Below, in pieces: positions 48,524 through 56,900 of a DNA stretch of 64,000 bases (its first letter is position 1; each line of letters starts with the position of its first letter). A program made the translations under genes and the position numbers. Source of the DNA: a bacterium (lineage in GTDB: Bacteria > Armatimonadota > Zipacnadia > Zipacnadales > Zipacnadaceae); NCBI GenBank assembly GCA_030602615.1, contig JAUVZM010000002.1, positions 1 to 64,000 of the forward strand, given 5' to 3'. The notes below the pieces were generated by a model. The model was not told the origin of the DNA, made no database searches, and was given only the letters and a program-made list of their open reading frames with translations.

Positions 48524-49294
48524 CTACTCCTCCTGTCCGGCTTCCGATTCTTCGGCAGGCGAGGCAGGGCTTGTGGTCACTTCTTCTAATGTCTTCTGCT
48601 CTTGCTGGTAGAGCTTGAAATCGCGCAGTTGCTTCAGCTCCTGAAGCAGATTCTCCAGCCGAACGATGACGTCGTCCAGAGCGCTATCGCCGACAATCGC
48701 CTCGTATATCTCCACTTCTCCCATCCCCACGCACTTGTCGGAGCCGTGATTGGAAGTGATTACCAAGCGGACATAGCGGGCTTCGACGGGCAGGAAATCG
48801 AAATGCTGCTCGATGGGCCTGTTGACTACCAGAAAGCGCCCCACTGTCTTGTACGGGCCCTCGGGGGTGGTCGTTGAGACTTGCAGTTCGACATCGCGCA
48901 CCCAGCGACCGATGAAGAGCGGATCGTCGGTGGCCGGATCAATCACGATTCGGCGCAGCAGACGGGTCTGATCCTGGGCGAAGGCAAAAACGACCCACTC
49001 AGGGCTTTCCTCAGACGGAGTATACTGCGATGACCAGCCGTAGGAATCGGCCGGCGTGTAGTTGCCCAGCACATGCTTGCCGTCGATAAGATTAGTGACC
49101 TGCCACTCCGGCATCACTTTGCCATTCTCGTCTACTGCTTGACCCGAGAAGGCAACTATTCGCCCGCCCATCTCAGCAGCAGCCAGATTCGTCCCGCCTG
49201 CGCTAATGGCATCAGAAGCATACAGCGGCATAGTTAAGCTGCTTATCAGCAGCAAAGCCATTAGTGTACCGGTAGGTAGTGAGATTTTGACCAT
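48524..49294 (-). CDS. Secreted discoidin (F5/8 type C)-like protein
   Basis: 256 aa. Signal peptide (MVKISLPTGTLMALLLISSL to about residue 27), then a jelly-roll domain: NLAAAEMGGRIVAFSGQ, VTNLIDGKHV, GWSSQYTPSEESPEWVVFAF, RIVIDPATDDP and the closing ARYVRLVITSNHGSDKCVGMGEVEIYE. This is the carbohydrate- or surface-binding F5/8 C fold. A C-terminal helix (LENLLQELKQLRDFKLYQQE) probably forms a coiled coil and ends in an acidic tail. Lies 50 nt downstream of the PASTA kinase gene, so it may be co-transcribed with the envelope operon. Confidence 0.82.
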   Translation of the reverse strand: MVKISLPTGTLMALLLISSLTMPLYASDAISAGGTNLAAAEMGGRIVAFSGQAVDENGKVMPEWQVTNLIDGKHVLGNYTPADSYGWSSQYTPSEESPEWVVFAFAQDQTRLLRRIVIDPATDDPLFIGRWVRDVELQVSTTTPEGPYKTVGRFLVVNRPIEQHFDFLPVEARYVRLVITSNHGSDKCVGMGEVEIYEAIVGDSALDDVIVRLENLLQELKQLRDFKLYQQEQKTLEEVTTSPASPAEESEAGQEE

Positions 49295-49344: not shown

Positions 49345-51141
49345 TCATTCAGTGTCGTTGCCCGACGGCGTTTCCACCTTGAAATTCTTTCGGACTATCA
49401 GTTTGCCCTCATGGTAGACCTCTATCGTGGTATTGCCACGGCCTGTGATCCGTAGTGTGCTAGCCTGACCCGGTTCCATTTCTTCGTCAAGCACTACTAT
49501 TGGGCCTCCCCGGGCGTCGCGCTGGATAACCCTAACCTGCTGCCCCTGCTTCTGGCCGAATACAGTGATATTGATGATGTAGTCACGACTCGTGCCATCG
49601 GCGGAGACGCTGGTCTCATCCGCGCGGATAGTGACGTCAGGCTCCAGCGGCTGTTGTTGCTGCTCCTCGTCAGAGGGTTGTAGCGGTTCGACGGGTTGTT
49701 CTTCTTCGGTTGGTTCCGGACCTCTACTTATGACCAGGGCAATGGGCCAACCCTTTTCCACCACCGTGCCCGGTGCATGCGACTGACGAATAACCTTGTC
49801 TTTCTGAATTTCACTGCTGTATCTTTCGGTGGTCTCGCCCACCGTCAGGCCAATCTGTTCCAGCTCACCCGCAGCCCGCTGGACCAACATACCTGTCAGG
49901 TCGGGCACGGTGACGGTCTCTTTGCCCAGGTTGATGGTCAGTTGGACCTTGGTGCCGACAGGAACCGACTCGCCCTCGGTAGGATGCTGTTCGGTGACCT
50001 GGCCGACTGGCTTGTCGGGTTCGCGGATGGTACGGACCCTACCAACTACCAGCTTGGCGTCGGTCAGCTTTTGTCGGGCCTCCGCCTCGGTTAAGCCTCG
50101 AACTGAGGGCACTTGCACTTCGGCGGGGGGGGCACCGGGATAGAAGGCTTGTTTTATCAGCCATCCCGCCATCACCAGGGCAACCAGCGCCAGCCCTATC
50201 ACCGCTGCGGTATGCCAAATCAGCGTAGTGTCGGCAGCCTGGCCTGGCTCTGCGGGTTCGGGGGTTGGCTGCATCGGAGCGGTAGCATCTTCGGCGGATA
50301 ACACGCCGGTCCGGTCTAGTTCCGCGCCGCTGGCCAGCTTCTCCAGATCAGTGCGCATCTCCTCAGCCGTGCGGTAACGCCGGGCTGGATCCTTGGCCAT
50401 TGCCTTGTTTAGCAGATACTCTTGGGACGGTGAGATGGTAGGATTAAGCGCCCGGGGTGAGGGAGGCTGCTGACGGACGTGCTTGGCCGCTACCTGCGCC
50501 GCAGTCTCTCCTGAGAAGGGGGGCTGGCCGGTGAGGGTCTCGTAGATAACGCAACCCAGTGAGTACAGGTCAGACTGGGGACCTATCGCCCGGCCCTGAG
50601 CCTGTTCCGGTGAGATATAGTGCGCGGTGCCCATCACCATGCCCGTAGGACCCTCGCTGGTCTGACCGACAGCAGTGGAGATTCCGAAATCGGACAGCTT
50701 GGGCTCGCCCTGGCTGGTGAACAGAATATTCTGTGGCTTTACGTCGCCGTGGACCAGTCCGTGATGGTGGATCTCCGCCAGAGCCTGGCAGCACGAGATT
50801 GCGACCTGGAGCACCTTGCGCGGCGGAAGTGGTGCGTATTCGGCGATGATCTGCTTAAGGTTAGGCTCGGGCAGATACTCCATTACCAGAAAGTGGACGT
50901 CCCCTTCTACTCCGGTGTCAAACACCTGAACGATATTTGGATGGGTCAATTTCGCCGCTGTGCGTGCTTCCCGGCGAAAACGTTCCAGCGCCTCGGGGTC
51001 CTCGGCCCACTGGGGCTTTAGGATCTTCACTGCTACTGTCCGATCCAACCTCAGATCCGTCGCCCGGTAGACGGTAGCCAAGCCTCCGCCGCCGATGCGA
51101 CTGCTCATCCGGTATCGGTCAGCGAGTATTGTCCCTTCCAT
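49345..51141 (-). CDS. pknB: PASTA-domain Ser/Thr protein kinase (PknB-like)
   Basis: 598 aa. Kinase domain residues 12-270: G-loop IGGGGLATVYRA, lysine in VAVKILK, the catalytic loop HGDVKPQN (the usual HRD is HGD), DFG in KLSDFGIS. A membrane helix lies near 308-330. Two extracellular PASTA units follow (VQVPSVRGLTEAEARQKL; VTVPDLTGMLVQRAAGEL), then a Pro/Glu/Gln linker and a C-terminal beta-rich domain of unknown role. PASTA domains bind muropeptides or lipid II, and such kinases control elongation and division. In most operons of this type the gene directly follows pbpA; here a 2.4-kb cassette intervenes. Confidence 0.93.
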   Translation of the reverse strand: MEGTILADRYRMSSRIGGGGLATVYRATDLRLDRTVAVKILKPQWAEDPEALERFRREARTAAKLTHPNIVQVFDTGVEGDVHFLVMEYLPEPNLKQIIAEYAPLPPRKVLQVAISCCQALAEIHHHGLVHGDVKPQNILFTSQGEPKLSDFGISTAVGQTSEGPTGMVMGTAHYISPEQAQGRAIGPQSDLYSLGCVIYETLTGQPPFSGETAAQVAAKHVRQQPPSPRALNPTISPSQEYLLNKAMAKDPARRYRTAEEMRTDLEKLASGAELDRTGVLSAEDATAPMQPTPEPAEPGQAADTTLIWHTAAVIGLALVALVMAGWLIKQAFYPGAPPAEVQVPSVRGLTEAEARQKLTDAKLVVGRVRTIREPDKPVGQVTEQHPTEGESVPVGTKVQLTINLGKETVTVPDLTGMLVQRAAGELEQIGLTVGETTERYSSEIQKDKVIRQSHAPGTVVEKGWPIALVISRGPEPTEEEQPVEPLQPSDEEQQQQPLEPDVTIRADETSVSADGTSRDYIINITVFGQKQGQQVRVIQRDARGGPIVVLDEEMEPGQASTLRITGRGNTTIEVYHEGKLIVRKNFKVETPSGNDTE

Positions 51142-51152
51142 GGTTACACCTC
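51118..51152. repeat. 35-bp direct repeat, copy at the intact pknB start
   Basis: Spans the first 24 nt of pknB and 11 nt before it. 53561-53595 carries the same 35 bp with about three mismatches, all upstream of the ATG; the 24 coding bases are identical. See the copy there and the PBP remnant nearby. Confidence 0.85.
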
Positions 51153-51202
51153 GAAGGCCAACTGGGCAGTATGATCAATGCCAGCAACTATCTCTTCAAC
51201 CA

Positions 51203-51300
51203 CTACTTGTCCAGCACAGCGGCAAGCACCTCTCGAGCGATGGAACCGGCTACGCACCGGGGCCGGCTCACTCCGGAGCAAGGCCACGCGGAAGCGCTCC
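51203..51300 (-). pseudogene. 3' tail of a second penicillin-binding-protein gene
   Basis: The minus strand reads AGSIAREVLAAVLDK and a TAG at 51205-51203, 61 nt before the pknB ATG. This matches the C-terminal helix of transpeptidase PBPs (the intact PBP here ends AGPIARQILEVLLSCQ), and the DNA of the two copies agrees at nearly every base over the AGxIAR segment. About 20 codons further upstream, FRVALL lies in a different frame, indicating a frameshift. Everything before about 51300 is missing. It is the remains of a PBP gene that once preceded pknB. Confidence 0.6.
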
Positions 51301-51386
51301 AAATCGGGGAAAATGTGCGATTGATCTTCATGATATCCAATTGTGGTATAGCTCTACTGGCGAAAACCCTCCTGTGCTATTGAGGA

Positions 51387-52388
51387 CTAGAGCTCCATTG
51401 TGTGCCCCTGCTGGGCGGCTTGGCGTGCGCTATGTACTATCGCTACCGAGTGTTTGGCTGTTTGCGCATCGACGGGAACAGGTGTTCTGAGAGCAACACA
51501 CTCCAGAAATGCCCGGTCTTCCGCGCGGAACATATCGTCGCGCTCGGTAGGGATCGTGCGGTGCGTCCAGTCCCGGTCGTGGGTGGTATATACTGAGACT
51601 GTGCATTGCTCCGACGAAGCAAGTTCCACCAATATGCTACCTTCAGTGCCAAGCAGCTCCGTCATGCGCCGCCGGGCCCGCTGGAAGAAGTCAAGGTGGA
51701 TGCTGCCTATCACACCACCGTTGAATTCAACCAGGATTTCAGCCAGGTCGGGCGCCTTCATGGGTACGTCGCTGTGGTTGCCAGTCATTGCTGTCACCCG
51801 GCGAGGTGGTCCATTAGCGTACCACACCGCCAGGTCCACCTCGTGTATCAAGTCAAAGGCGCCAGTGGTCTGTGTGCTGAACAGGGTCTGGAAATCGGGA
51901 CGTATCTCCGGCAGATACTCGCCAACCATTGCACGCACCGCGACCAGCCGGCCAATAGCGCCCTCATCGAGTCGCTGTTTAGCCAAGCGCAAGCCCTCGT
52001 GGAATCGAAGGCACAGACCAACCATCAACAGCTTCCCCCGGTCTTGGACCAAGCGGCTCAGCTCGTCTATTCCCTCAGGAGAGTCCGAAAGCGGCTTTTC
52101 ACAGAAGACGTCGCACCCTGCCTCAATCGCCGCATGCGCCTGTCCGATATGCAGAGCAGGCGGTGTACATATGAAAACCGCGCCGAAGTCATGCTGGAGA
52201 GCTTCGCTAAGCGTGGGATACAACTCATCGGTCCCCAGGGCCTCGCGTAGGACCTCGAGTTTGGCAGAGTCAGTATCACAAGCCGCCAAGCGAGATACGC
52301 CCAGCTCCTGTAATATGCTAAAATGCCGGGACCCAATAGACCCTGCCCCCACTATCAGTACACTGGTATCTCCCCAGTCATTTTTCAT
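51387..52388 (-). CDS. Gfo/Idh/MocA-family oxidoreductase, copy 3
   Basis: 333 aa. Rossmann loop VLIVGAGSIGSRHFSILQEL, the EKP signature in VFCEKPLSDSPEG, GLCLRFHEGLRLAKQRL and the C-terminal IHEVDLAVWYANG histidine segment. The GSIGSRH type of loop is common in members near surface-sugar genes. Last gene of the inserted cassette, 19 nt after the SDR gene. Product and substrate unknown. Confidence 0.85.
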   Translation of the reverse strand: MKNDWGDTSVLIVGAGSIGSRHFSILQELGVSRLAACDTDSAKLEVLREALGTDELYPTLSEALQHDFGAVFICTPPALHIGQAHAAIEAGCDVFCEKPLSDSPEGIDELSRLVQDRGKLLMVGLCLRFHEGLRLAKQRLDEGAIGRLVAVRAMVGEYLPEIRPDFQTLFSTQTTGAFDLIHEVDLAVWYANGPPRRVTAMTGNHSDVPMKAPDLAEILVEFNGGVIGSIHLDFFQRARRRMTELLGTEGSILVELASSEQCTVSVYTTHDRDWTHRTIPTERDDMFRAEDRAFLECVALRTPVPVDAQTAKHSVAIVHSARQAAQQGHTMEL

Positions 52389-52407
52389 ATTATAACTCCT
52401 TCTTCAA

Positions 52408-53220
52408 CTACCAGGCGGTGAGTCCGCCGTCCACGACAATGTTGACACCCGTTACAAATGACGAAGCCTCTGAGGCAAGAAAGACAGCCGGTCCTTTCAT
52501 CTCCTTGCCGTCCTGCCCCATCCGCCCCATCGGAAAGGTCTTGCTGTAAGCCTCAACGAACTTCTCGGGCTGATTGCGGAAGAATCCGCCGGGACTGATG
52601 CAGTTGACGCGGATGCCATCTGGAGCAAGATAGACCGCCATGTCTCGCGTCATGTTGATCACGCCGGCTTTTACCGCCTCGTAGTCCAGCGTCACACCGC
52701 CCATATCGGTTCCCTCGTAGACGCGCCGATCCTTGCCGATCATACCCGCGGTAGAACCGATATTGATGATGACACCTGACTGAGCTGGCTTCATTGCCTT
52801 AGCCACTACATGCTTGCTGCACAGGAACACGCCCGTGAGATTGACGTCAATGGTCATCTGCCACTCTTCGAGACTGCGCTTCTCGAACGGCGCGGTTTCG
52901 GGCGTGCTCACGACATTGCCCGCGTTGTTGACCAGAATGTCAATCTGGCCGAATTCTGCAAGTATCTGGTCTACTACGGATTCGACTTGGGCCTCGACAG
53001 CCACGTCGAGCTGTACCGGCATGACTTTGCGGCCCGTCGCGGAGCTGATCTTCTCGGCGGAAGCTTCAGCATTGGCCAGCGTACGGCTGGTGATGGCAAC
53101 ATCGGCGCCCGCCTCTGCCAGGGCCAGAGCCATGTCATAACCGAGATTCCTGGCTCCGCCGGTCACGAACCCCACCTTGCCATCCAGCTTGAATAGTTCC
53201 CAAATATGCCACTCGTCCAT
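52408..53220 (-). CDS. Short-chain dehydrogenase/reductase (gluconate 5-dehydrogenase-like)
   Basis: 270 aa. Cofactor loop VTGGARNLGYDMALALAEAG, NNAGNVVS, catalytic Ser in IINIGSTAGM and the YxxxK pair in LDYEAVKAGVINM; C-terminal CISPGGFF and FVTGVNIVVDGGLTAW. The classical SDR length and motifs fit sugar-acid or polyol dehydrogenases such as gluconate 5-dehydrogenase, but specificity is not certain. Middle gene of the cassette that splits the PBP and PknB genes. Confidence 0.87.
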   Translation of the reverse strand: MDEWHIWELFKLDGKVGFVTGGARNLGYDMALALAEAGADVAITSRTLANAEASAEKISSATGRKVMPVQLDVAVEAQVESVVDQILAEFGQIDILVNNAGNVVSTPETAPFEKRSLEEWQMTIDVNLTGVFLCSKHVVAKAMKPAQSGVIINIGSTAGMIGKDRRVYEGTDMGGVTLDYEAVKAGVINMTRDMAVYLAPDGIRVNCISPGGFFRNQPEKFVEAYSKTFPMGRMGQDGKEMKGPAVFLASEASSFVTGVNIVVDGGLTAW

Positions 53221-53235
53221 ACCAGATACCTCCTC

Positions 53236-53520
53236 TCAGTAGATACGGCCGCACTTGCGAACGGTGTCAAGCATGGCCTTGTAGTTTCGCAATGGGATGT
53301 AACGTGCTATGGAGTTGCCCGACCCGAGGGCGAATCCACCCCTGGGCGCGACGTTCTCGATCAGATACTTGGTCGCTGCGATCACTTCTGCCACACTGCC
53401 ACGGGTCAGCAATCCGACATCAATGCCGACTTCGGCAAGGGGCACCCGATCCGGCAGCCGCTCCCGAGTTACAGCCGATTCAAATCTGTTAAAGTCCGGG
53501 CGTGCTCGAAAATCAGGCAA
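53236..53520 (-). pseudogene. Internally deleted URO-D-family gene
   Basis: 94 codons from TTG 53520. Residues 1-35 (FNRFESAVTRERLPDRVPLA, EVGIDV) are a typical URO-D N-terminus; residues 36-94 (LLTRGSVAEVIAATKYLIEN, GGFALGSGNSIARYIPLRNY) are a typical C-terminus. About 250 residues of the barrel between them are missing, and the join at GIDV/GLLTRG keeps the frame. The protein could not form the barrel. It lies 15 nt before the SDR gene. Confidence 0.75.
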
Positions 53521-53560
53521 ATTGGTATCTCACCTCGACTACCTTTACGTCTCGAGCAGC

Positions 53561-53595
53561 GTCAGCGAGTATTGTCCCTTCCATTGCTATACCTC
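53561..53595. repeat. 35-bp direct repeat, orphan copy of the pknB start
   Basis: Contains ATG (53584-53582, minus) and the first eight pknB codons (MEGTILAD), then runs into unrelated sequence. It lies 57 nt after the stop of the intact PBP gene, almost the same spacing (61 nt) as between the PBP remnant and the real pknB. This looks like the original PBP-PknB junction after duplication. Confidence 0.85.
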
Positions 53596-53641
53596 AAATC
53601 CCCCGCGGCCAAGCCGTGCACCGGGTGTGACTAATTGCGGA

Positions 53642-55036
53642 TCACTGACAACTCAGCAGTACTTCGAGAATCTGTCGGGCGATGGGACCGGCTGCCGGGC
53701 GGCCCGGTACGGTATTCTCGACGATTACCGCAACTGCCGCTTGCGGTGCCTCCACAGGCCCGAAGCCCAGCGCCCAGCTATGAGGCTTGCCCTCAGGATT
53801 TTGCGCCCAACCTGTCTGGGCAGCCACGCGGCAGCCAGACAGCACCACATTGCTTGCACTACCTTCTTCGACAGATACCTGCATCATACCTGCCACCTGT
53901 TGGGCAGTTTCCTGATTGATAGCTGCTCCCAGCCGGCCGCCACGGTAGTCAGTGACCGTTTCACCACCCTGCCGGGTGATTCTGTCCACCAGATAGGGCT
54001 GGATCACCCGGCCGCCGCTGGCGATGGTAGCCGCCAGCCGCGCCATAGCTATTGGCGTTACGAGGGTTGCTTCCTGACCAAGGGCTGCTTCTACCAGTTC
54101 AGTTTCGGCATCGTCGCCGACCAGATCAGCCATCTTTCCCTGTGCCGTCGGCAAGGGCAGATCAGATCCCTCCAACGGGTGGAGTTTTTTGGCATAATTG
54201 CGGAACTGCTCAGGTCCAATCAGTTGAGCCAGCTCAGCAAAGGCTATGTTGCACGAGTCGGCCAGCGCTCGACTCAGCGTTAGTCTGCCGTGGCCCCCGA
54301 GCTTGCTGCAGTTGACGGTTATTCCGGCAATCTGCTCGGTTCCTGTACAGTCGAATACTTTCTGTTCGGTAGCTACTCCTGTGTCCAGGCCGGCTGCAGC
54401 GACAAGTATCTGTAATATCGTCCCGGGCGGGTACAGTCCCTGCAGGGCCCGGTTCAGTTCGGGCGAAGCAGGATGATTGGTGAACATCTCGTAGTTCATC
54501 TGGCTTTCCATCACCCGGGCGGGGTCATAGCTGGGTGCGCTGACCATCGCCAGGATAGCACCATTGCCCGGATTCAGGGCAACCACTGCCCCGCGCCTGC
54601 CCTCCATCAGCTTGGTTGCGCGCCGTTGAGCCTTGCTGTCTATGGTTAACACGACATCCAGCCCCTGCTCTGTGTAGCCGACTGCCCCCCACCGATCCTG
54701 GTAGGCGCCGATGCCCAACAGCGCTTCCCGCAGGCCTTTTTGCAGACCGGTATTCTCATTGTAGCCGGTGAGATGGCAATAGACCGGGCCGGCCGGGTAG
54801 GTGTGTTGCCAGCCCTCGTCATCTTTTTCCACCCCCATGACCAGCTCGCCGTCGCCAGTGTAGATGAAACCGGGCTTGATGCTTTTGGCCCGTTGTTGGG
54901 CTTGCTGATTGTAGGGATGGGCCCGCAGGGCTGGCGCTCGCACCACCTGCCAGTACCCAAAGACCAGAGCCATCAGTAGGAAGCTCCAGACGGCGCCCAG
55001 CGCAATGCGCCTGATATTTTGGGATAGCTCGTTCAT
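53642..55036 (-). CDS. Penicillin-binding-protein-like transpeptidase lacking catalytic residues
   Basis: 464 aa with an N-terminal membrane helix (residues 11-30), a short N-terminal domain and a full-length transpeptidase domain from about 120. It aligns with PbpA/FtsI-type proteins, including AMVSAPSYDPARV and the SxN motif SCN at 261-263. The SxxK motif, normally in YPPGSTFK, reads YPPGTILQ: Thr206 replaces the nucleophilic Ser and Gln209 the Lys. KTG reads QTG (Gln407). All three changes are single-codon states in an otherwise open, well-conserved frame. Transpeptidation and beta-lactam acylation are therefore not expected; a scaffold or SEDS-activating role is possible. Overlaps the FtsW/RodA gene by 4 nt. 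Confidence 0.85.
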   Translation of the reverse strand: MNELSQNIRRIALGAVWSFLLMALVFGYWQVVRAPALRAHPYNQQAQQRAKSIKPGFIYTGDGELVMGVEKDDEGWQHTYPAGPVYCHLTGYNENTGLQKGLREALLGIGAYQDRWGAVGYTEQGLDVVLTIDSKAQRRATKLMEGRRGAVVALNPGNGAILAMVSAPSYDPARVMESQMNYEMFTNHPASPELNRALQGLYPPGTILQILVAAAGLDTGVATEQKVFDCTGTEQIAGITVNCSKLGGHGRLTLSRALADSCNIAFAELAQLIGPEQFRNYAKKLHPLEGSDLPLPTAQGKMADLVGDDAETELVEAALGQEATLVTPIAMARLAATIASGGRVIQPYLVDRITRQGGETVTDYRGGRLGAAINQETAQQVAGMMQVSVEEGSASNVVLSGCRVAAQTGWAQNPEGKPHSWALGFGPVEAPQAAVAVIVENTVPGRPAAGPIARQILEVLLSCQ

Positions 55037-56340
55037 GTCAGCGCGCTTTCTTCGGGTTGCGGCACACAGTCGCGCGAGACGGCCAGCAGCAGGCCAACAG
55101 CCAGGAAATTGATCACAATGGATGTGCCCCCGTAGCTGAGAAAAGGGGTAGTTATTCCTGTCAGGGGAATCAGGCGCAACAGTCCGCCCATAATGATCAA
55201 CGTCTGCAGCGAGAAAACGGTGGCCAGCGCCGCAGCCAGCAGACTGGCGAAGCGGTCGGTAGCCTGCCAGGCGAGGCTGTAGCTACGCACGGAAATCAGG
55301 GCATAGATTATTACTATCCCCCCGGACCCGACGAGGCCCAGATCCTGTCCTATTACGACCAGGATCAGGTCGGTGGGGGCGGCCGGCAGGTTGGTTACTG
55401 ATAGGTGTCCCAGGCCTGCCCCGAAAATCCCTCCTTCACCCAGGCAGAACATCGCCTGCAGGGGTTGGTAACCTATCCCGGTAGGATCTGCCCAGGGGTT
55501 GAGCCAACTGCTGATTCTAACTCCTACCTGAGGGAATAGCTGATATGCAAGAGTCAGGCCCACCGCGAAGAGCGCTACCGCCGCTATTCCATACGCGGGC
55601 TGGCCGGTTGCCAGGTAGAACATAGTGACAAACAGACCAAAGAAAAGGATGGCGGTTCCCAGGTCGCGTTGTCCCACAAAGATTGCCAGACAAGAGATCA
55701 CGATGAGCAGCAACGGTGCCAGCGACCGCAGCGAGGGAGTCTGGATACTGATGCGGCCTCTGCCCCTGCGACCCAGCATCTGGCGGTAGTCAGCCACATA
55801 GCCGGCCAGAAATATCGCCATTAGAATCTTGGCGACCTCGCCTGACTGGAAGGTAACCAGATGCGGAATGGACAGCCACAGGCGCGCGCCATTGATCTCC
55901 TTGCCCCACAGCATTGTAGCCGCTAGCAGAGCGATTGCGGATAGGCCAGCCAGGTACTTGAATCGGGCCAGGGAGCGAATATCCTCGATCAAGTAGTAGA
56001 GCGCGACCATCAGAAAGATTCCGATGATGATGGCAATGAGCTGGCGAGTGGCCAGGTAGGCGTCGGTGCGGGTCAGGAAGACTATGCTCAAGACGCATAG
56101 CAGGCCACACAGAGGCAGCAACAGGCGATCGCGACGGGCCGTGACCAGATCCATAAGCACAACTGCTACTAGCAAAACCCCGGCTGGTGTCAGCCCACGC
56201 ATAGCCCAGCCCAGCGGCTTGCCAGTGGCTGCCGTAACTAGCATCAGCCCGGCCGCCCCTACCACGGCGCAGGCTATCAGCAATATTATTTCTATGCGCC
56301 TGGTCTGACTTATTGGGGATTGACTCCTTTTCGTCGCCAA
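55033..56340 (-). CDS. FtsW/RodA-type SEDS peptidoglycan glycosyltransferase
   Basis: 435 aa with about ten or more membrane helices. Conserved SEDS segments are present: FQSGEVAKILMAIFLAGY, VGQRDLGTAILFFGLFV, the extracellular loop PTGIGYQPLQAMFCLGEGG, GAGLGHLSVTNLP, and PTDLILVVIGQDLGLVG, which keeps the conserved Asp of the catalytic loop (usual hTDFIF) but has QD for EE. C-terminal TPFLSYGGTS is intact. It polymerises lipid II and normally needs a class B PBP partner, encoded directly downstream but apparently inert. Confidence 0.92.
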   Translation of the reverse strand: MATKRSQSPISQTRRIEIILLIACAVVGAAGLMLVTAATGKPLGWAMRGLTPAGVLLVAVVLMDLVTARRDRLLLPLCGLLCVLSIVFLTRTDAYLATRQLIAIIIGIFLMVALYYLIEDIRSLARFKYLAGLSAIALLAATMLWGKEINGARLWLSIPHLVTFQSGEVAKILMAIFLAGYVADYRQMLGRRGRGRISIQTPSLRSLAPLLLIVISCLAIFVGQRDLGTAILFFGLFVTMFYLATGQPAYGIAAVALFAVGLTLAYQLFPQVGVRISSWLNPWADPTGIGYQPLQAMFCLGEGGIFGAGLGHLSVTNLPAAPTDLILVVIGQDLGLVGSGGIVIIYALISVRSYSLAWQATDRFASLLAAALATVFSLQTLIIMGGLLRLIPLTGITTPFLSYGGTSIVINFLAVGLLLAVSRDCVPQPEESALT

Positions 56341-56363: not shown

Positions 56364-56900
56364 CTAATGCTGATAGCGGAAGGTGGTGGCACCGATGGTA
56401 ATTTCGTCACCGTCGCTCAGGGCGACATCGTCCTGGATTCTGACGCCGTTGTGGACGGTTCCGTTCGTAGAATGGTAATCCCGCAGGATAAAGCTGTTGT
56501 CTTGTTGGACGATCAACGCGTGGGTAGCCGATACATAGCGGTCCTGCAAGCTGAGGTCGTTATGCCACTTGCGGCCGATGCTGATTGACTTGCTCAGCGG
56601 AAAGCTGGTGCCTATCGAGAGATTCGTAGCCGAGGTCTCGACCACAAGCAGGCGGGCAAGGCGAGGTGGCTCGGCGCCTGCCTCCTTCGCCTCCAGTTCG
56701 GGCCGGGTCGGCTCCGGCGGCGACTGTCGGGAATCACGCTCGAACACTGGCCGCTGGGCAGGTTGGCCATCGTGCTGGGCCACCGGTTGTTGGGCCGTGG
56801 CGATATGGAGAATAAGCAGACGAAAGACAACTGCGATAAACACGTATAGCAGCGCGACAAACAGATACTTACCGATTGTCAGCAAGAGGCCTAGTTCCAC
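56364..56900 (-). CDS. FHA-domain protein with N-terminal membrane helix (FhaB-like)
   Basis: 178 aa, GTG start. A helix at about residues 6-30 anchors it in the membrane, a polar linker follows, and the FHA domain occupies 100-178: SIGRKWHNDLSLQDRYVSATHALI (GR, S..H) and RDYHSTNGTVHNGV with the phosphothreonine-binding Asn. FHA domains read phospho-Thr marks; in this operon it probably binds targets of the downstream PASTA kinase. First gene of the operon, followed by FtsW/RodA, PBP and PknB genes. Confidence 0.9.
   Translation of the reverse strand: MELGLLLTIGKYLFVALLYVFIAVVFRLLILHIATAQQPVAQHDGQPAQRPVFERDSRQSPPEPTRPELEAKEAGAEPPRLARLLVVETSATNLSIGTSFPLSKSISIGRKWHNDLSLQDRYVSATHALIVQQDNSFILRDYHSTNGTVHNGVRIQDDVALSDGDEITIGATTFRYQH

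Follow-up and report, generated by a model that had tools for sequence, protein, structure and literature searches.

SEDS polymerases are held to require their class B penicillin-binding protein (PBP) for activation, apart from its crosslinking. A related arrangement is known from the degenerate LytM factors EnvC and NlpD, which keep a wall-enzyme fold, have lost catalysis and act as activators; they are like the role proposed here for a PBP, but differ in fold and in target (amidases), with no transpeptidase or SEDS protein involved. In Actinobacteria the locus order is fha-rodA-pbpA-pknB, and M. tuberculosis PBPA has intact catalytic motifs. The contact through which activation occurs was placed between ECL4 of FtsW and the pedestal of FtsI (PMC8765783). 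Engineered mutants had been used to ask whether class B PBPs are essential for something other than crosslinking. A C. difficile SpoVD mutant without catalysis (S311A) still allows (asymmetric) division, provided that its SEDS partner is present, and for B. subtilis PBP2b catalysis is dispensable whereas the protein is essential (PMC12713402). These are laboratory versions of active enzymes. A search of open-access full text turned up no naturally dead class B PBP that had been retained beside its SEDS partner, which is weak evidence of absence.

The window (the whole stretch of DNA analysed, 64,000 nucleotides) comes from a genome (G000) of the class Ca. Zipacnadia, Armatimonadota, a class of uncultured marine-sediment bacteria. 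It carries a PBP gene with the following features:

53642..55036, (-) strand: PbpA-type class B PBP homolog, catalytically degenerate, 464 aa (ORF, PF00905 at full length, relatives of solved structure)
54410..54421, (-) strand: degenerate SxxK, T206-I-L-Q209, with Thr for Ser and Gln for Lys
54248..54256, (-) strand: intact SxN motif, S261-C-N263, as read from the sequence
53810..53818, (-) strand: degenerate KTG, Q407-T-G, with Gln for Lys
54662..55036, (-) strand: residues 1-125 (TM helix and pedestal), under unrelaxed constraint

In a profile search the protein matches PF00905 end to end (1-299/299, E 8e-47). Its closest solved structures are PbpA-type, such as 4MNR, 4JBF and M. tuberculosis PBPA (3LO7/3UN7), in an alignment that spans residues 31-461. 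Judged from its sequence, it meets the description of a PbpA-type class B PBP of ~460 aa with a TM helix, a pedestal and a C-terminal transpeptidase fold. A match to PBP_dimer_2, the PbpA dimerisation domain, at residues 56-101 reached 21.6 bits, under the cut-off of 27, and a structure prediction from a shallow alignment (the window protein and two relatives) was unusable, with a mean pLDDT of 35. M. tuberculosis PBPA has the same fold and length and is the enzyme with intact motifs, in contrast to the window protein, which is without the Ser and both Lys. The altered residues lie in the contexts LQGLYPPG-T206-I-L-Q209 and A-A-Q407-T-G. An earlier note had read the Ser of SxxK as T206, its Lys as Q209 and the KTG Lys as Q407, with SxN retained, and had reported an overlap with the gene of an FtsW/RodA (SEDS) protein; the ORF, its coordinates and its motifs bear out the first, and the overlap is real at 4 bp (ACATGA). 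Of the motifs that define an active serine DD-transpeptidase, SxxK and KTG are therefore unmet and SxN is met; with no assay, the loss of activity is an inference from these residues.

The same lesion is present in independent assemblies, CSMAG_2722 (90% identical) and the Guaymas Basin Candidatus Zipacnadia MAG Meg22_1012_Bin_272 (75%). Within the genus, PbpA is dead in five of the seven genomes (G000, G006, G002, G003 and G005) and intact in G001 and G004. In all five dead members Thr replaces the Ser, the SxxK Lys has become Q or E, and the KTG Lys has become Q, E or V. The comparison with homologs that the earlier note had proposed for T206, Q209 and Q407 thus found Thr206 common to the five species and the Lys sites lost in all of them. 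The frame is open in each, the gene of G005 being divided between two contigs. S206, K209 and K407 are present in the 26 intact class orthologs compared and in four further intact sequences. Among the 77 sites that are at least 95% conserved in those 26 orthologs, just four (206, 209, 393 and 407) differ in every one of the five dead species, and three of these four are catalytic (hypergeometric p = 0.002).

Across the class, 13 of the 43 genomes that carry the gene have lost the Ser and/or Lys, 29 are intact and one is partial (G029, KTG kept). Dead forms outside the genus clade read as follows:

G011: SVFE
G008: SVFT, SCP, MTA
G010: SVLT
G007: PMME, SCP
G015 and G025: WxxA, with SxN and KTG gone
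G041: AALQ, SCR, IAG
G042: Ser to Ala, SCD

Inactivity is least certain for G010 and G011, where only the SxxK Lys is missing. Placed on the SEDS+kinase tree, the dead state takes five changes by free parsimony, or at least six losses if it is irreversible, which would fall in the five-species clade, G007+G010, G008, G011, G015+G025 and G041+G042; the join of G041 and G042 on this tree involves long branches. In G015 and G025 the dead state spans genera, and their transpeptidase (TP) domains still share 49% identity. Beyond the class, all 13 of the further PbpA-like sequences fetched from the phylum are intact at SxxK; one of them (G085) ends before KTG. Recurrent catalytic loss (at least five or six times) under continued selection suggests a structural partner rather than an enzyme. 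Zipacnadia would then hold natural repeats of the experiment done with SpoVD and PBP2b. Those mutants are, like the window PbpA, non-catalytic class B PBPs, and they support growth or division with their SEDS partner, but the dead state in Zipacnadia is natural, fixed and recurrent. What is new is that a pseudoenzyme state is fixed and recurs; each of the parts belongs to a known kind.

The genes around PbpA lie on the same strand:

56364..56900, (-) strand: protein with an FHA domain, lying upstream in the conserved unit (PF00498; synteny)
55033..56340, (-) strand: SEDS (FtsW/RodA family) glycosyltransferase, 435 aa (PF01098; alignment to 6PL5/8BH1 chains)
51142..53598, (-) strand: insert of ~2.4 kb, unique to the window genome, separating PbpA from the kinase and lacking in G006/G002/G003/G005
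49345..51141, (-) strand: PknB/Stk1-type Ser/Thr kinase with PASTA repeats, HGD in place of HRD (NF033483; alignment)
48524..49294, (-) strand: protein with a discoidin (F5/8 type C) domain, conserved on the downstream side of the unit (PF00754; synteny)

It is the start of the PBP gene that overlaps the stop of the SEDS gene. The kinase meets the criterion for a PASTA kinase of the PknB/Stk1 kind, with a kinase domain and PASTA repeats (NF033483, 509 bits against a cut-off of 450). The usual gene order in the class is FHA - SEDS - PbpA - PASTA kinase - discoidin protein, and the FHA-SEDS-PbpA-kinase core is also found elsewhere in Armatimonadota. In dead-PbpA lineages the SEDS-PbpA-kinase order is retained wherever the contig permits reading. 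The actinobacterial locus is alike in having the SEDS gene immediately upstream and an FHA protein and a PASTA kinase in the locus. This anatomy fits a partner role for PbpA, with the SEDS overlap and N-terminal constraint retained, catalysis lost and other transpeptidases present.

The SEDS protein of the window has the PF01098 fold, a catalytic Asp in ECL4 and the conserved W, Q and SYGG residues expected of the family. In alignments with solved RodA and FtsW, its D324 (codon 55369-55371) falls on their catalytic Asp, and the window protein retains 87 of the 87 sites conserved in intact-PbpA genomes, D324 included. The RodA-PBP2 and FtsW-FtsI core complexes (6PL5, 8TJ3, 8BH1) have the same SEDS and class B PBP architecture, but they contain an active PBP, and the window genome, which has three SEDS genes, has separate FtsI-like and MrdA-like PBPs too. 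Of the dead lineages whose SEDS sequence was readable, only one lacks the catalytic Asp. The SEDS protein of G003 (L045) has D324E at this position, plus S407P. That of G002 (L044) has G395S; judged by its position relative to SYGG, this is the equivalent of G371S in E. coli FtsW, which is non-functional and dominant-negative (PMC8765783). The G008 SEDS gene (L051 5076-6319), also next to a dead PbpA, is in two overlapping frames, either a real frameshift or an assembly error.

Selection was measured by codon maximum likelihood (GY-type, F3x4) on a 10-taxon tree, with p-values that assume the model. The "other branches" of this tree include two dead tips, G008 and G011. Synonymous divergence is deep on those branches, and the fit was therefore repeated on a tree of the genus alone. 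PbpA in the dead crown has an omega of 0.283 against 0.145 on other branches, and omega = 1 is rejected (2dlnL 240). Relaxation is specific to one region: residues 1-125 show none (0.188 against 0.157, p = 0.42), while the TP domain is relaxed (0.328 against 0.136, p 4e-11), though still far from neutral. The genus-only tree agrees (TP domain 0.327 against 0.156, p 1e-4; residues 1-125 n.s.). In the dead clade the SEDS gene shows relaxation as well (0.226 against 0.106, p 2e-7; genus-only tree p 5e-5). The kinase is not significantly relaxed on the 10-taxon tree and gives p 0.017 on the genus-only tree, and relaxation of the discoidin gene is significant on neither. An FtsI-like PBP from the same genomes, used as a control, gave 0.202 against 0.198. 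Genome-wide relaxation in the dead clade is excluded, as the FtsI-like and discoidin genes show none. By these measures PbpA meets the criterion for a pseudoenzyme (catalytic residues lost, purifying selection across five species), its absence of activity again being deduced from residues alone.

Other enzymes for crosslinking are at hand. The survey for further class B PBPs and L,D-transpeptidases that had been proposed found, besides the window PBP, an FtsI-like PBP, pieces of a MrdA-like PBP at two contig ends, a class A PBP and one YkuD L,D-transpeptidase in the window genome. In the dead-PbpA genomes that were examined, the FtsI-like and class A PBPs have an intact SxxK and KTG. The MrdA-like motifs are intact in the window genome (SVFK/KTG), and YkuD is present in five of the seven genus genomes. 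The MrdA-like pieces (L002 and L004, at the ends of G000:C69 and C51) overlap and are non-identical, from a second copy or from strain variation in the assembly.

The explanation to which we lean, with moderate confidence, is that PbpA is a natural pseudo-transpeptidase retained as a structural partner and activator of SEDS, with crosslinking left to others. It starts from what is observed directly: the lesions with their sharing and recurrence, purifying selection, relaxation confined to one region, an intact SEDS active site in the window genome, gene order and overlap, and the other transpeptidases. With the Ser nucleophile and both Lys gone, PbpA would be unable to be acylated or to crosslink, and should be blind to beta-lactams. 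Selection would retain its membrane anchor, its pedestal and the fold of its TP domain, and these parts may bind and allosterically activate the SEDS polymerase of the overlapping gene, the pair being subject to the FHA/PASTA-kinase module encoded alongside. Strands would be crosslinked by the FtsI-like or MrdA-like PBPs, the class A PBP or the L,D-transpeptidase. The activity of the SEDS protein, its activation by a dead partner and the enzyme that crosslinks in trans are all inferred, the latter two by analogy with the SEDS literature. The earlier note had proposed such a pseudoenzyme, and the shared lesion, the open frames, a dN/dS below 1, the unrelaxed pedestal, the relaxed TP domain and the other transpeptidases all support it. 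It had also named as a refutation intact homologs in the same clade with pseudogenisation only here; intact homologs do exist (G001 and G004), but five species share the lesion, with open frames and a dN/dS of 0.28. A PBP kept beside SEDS after catalysis is lost, with a pedestal as constrained as before, would be natural sequence evidence for the structural-partner role, and the intact sisters in the same genus serve as controls with which the surfaces that matter can be located. Our confidence goes no higher mainly because SEDS is relaxed in the dead clade too. D324E in G003, G395S in G002 and the broken SEDS frame of G008 (which could be assembly) also count against an activator, as do a well constrained TP domain, unneeded for a purely pedestal function, and the lack of biochemical data and of a usable structure model.

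The same SEDS relaxation keeps alive an unlikely alternative, in which a third, redundant SEDS-PBP pair is slowly decaying: PbpA catalysis became dispensable and was lost first, SEDS is following and residual constraints preserve the proteins for now. It would account for relaxation in the TP domain and SEDS with none in the discoidin and FtsI-like genes and little or none in the kinase, for the SEDS changes in G002, G003 and G008, and for the presence of three SEDS genes. Decay is harder to reconcile with a dead state that persists across several species, and across genera in G015/G025 at 49% identity of the TP domain, with a PbpA omega of 0.28 that is not near 1 and unrelaxed residues 1-125, and with a window SEDS intact at every conserved site.

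As a rather improbable reading, the whole SEDS-PbpA pair of Zipacnadia may be converting, repeatedly and in parallel, from making peptidoglycan to serving the FHA/PASTA-kinase module as a partner or sensor without enzyme activity; catalysis would be lost first in the transpeptidase and then, in some species, at the polymerase active site. It is doubtful, in turn, that the pair is already a non-catalytic sensor or scaffold for this module, in which the PBP pocket and the SEDS cavity would serve as binding sites for stem peptide or lipid II and signal to the kinase, with no peptidoglycan made. The conserved linkage with FHA and the PASTA kinase, the full or nearly full constraint on the kinase and discoidin genes while PbpA and SEDS relax, the SEDS active-site changes in two sister species and a TP fold under selection although dead all speak for it. 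Nevertheless, the SEDS catalytic Asp persists in all but one readable dead lineage, the window SEDS keeps all conserved sites, and there is no direct evidence for ligand binding or signalling.

Far less credible is altered chemistry, in which PbpA would still crosslink and Thr206, or some other residue, would act as the nucleophile. All five dead species of the genus have T206 and the TP domain is under purifying selection, but the nucleophile-activating and substrate-binding Lys are lost together, to Q, E or V, and P, W or A stand at 206 in dead lineages outside the genus clade. No new conserved Ser, Cys or Lys stands out near the active site of the dead genus PbpAs, and a compensating new nucleophile was rejected on this ground. 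An assembly error or a pseudogene of one genome, conceivable for metagenome assemblies, is excluded with near certainty by five separate assemblies at 75-90% identity that share the lesions, open frames and strong purifying selection.

Two features of the locus stand apart from these questions. PbpA and the kinase, about 50 bp apart in relatives, are separated in the window genome by the 2.4-kb insert, and the first bases of the kinase gene (~38 bp, 89% identical) are present at both of its edges, 51118-51155 and 53561-53598. The insert holds an SDR gene (52408-53220), a GFO/IDH/MocA oxidoreductase gene (51387-52388) and an ORF (53236-53520) that by eye resembles the C-terminal end of uroporphyrinogen decarboxylase. 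The PASTA kinase of the genus, in dead- and live-PbpA genomes alike, has HGD for HRD in its catalytic loop (a non-RD kinase) and retains the Lys and DFG.
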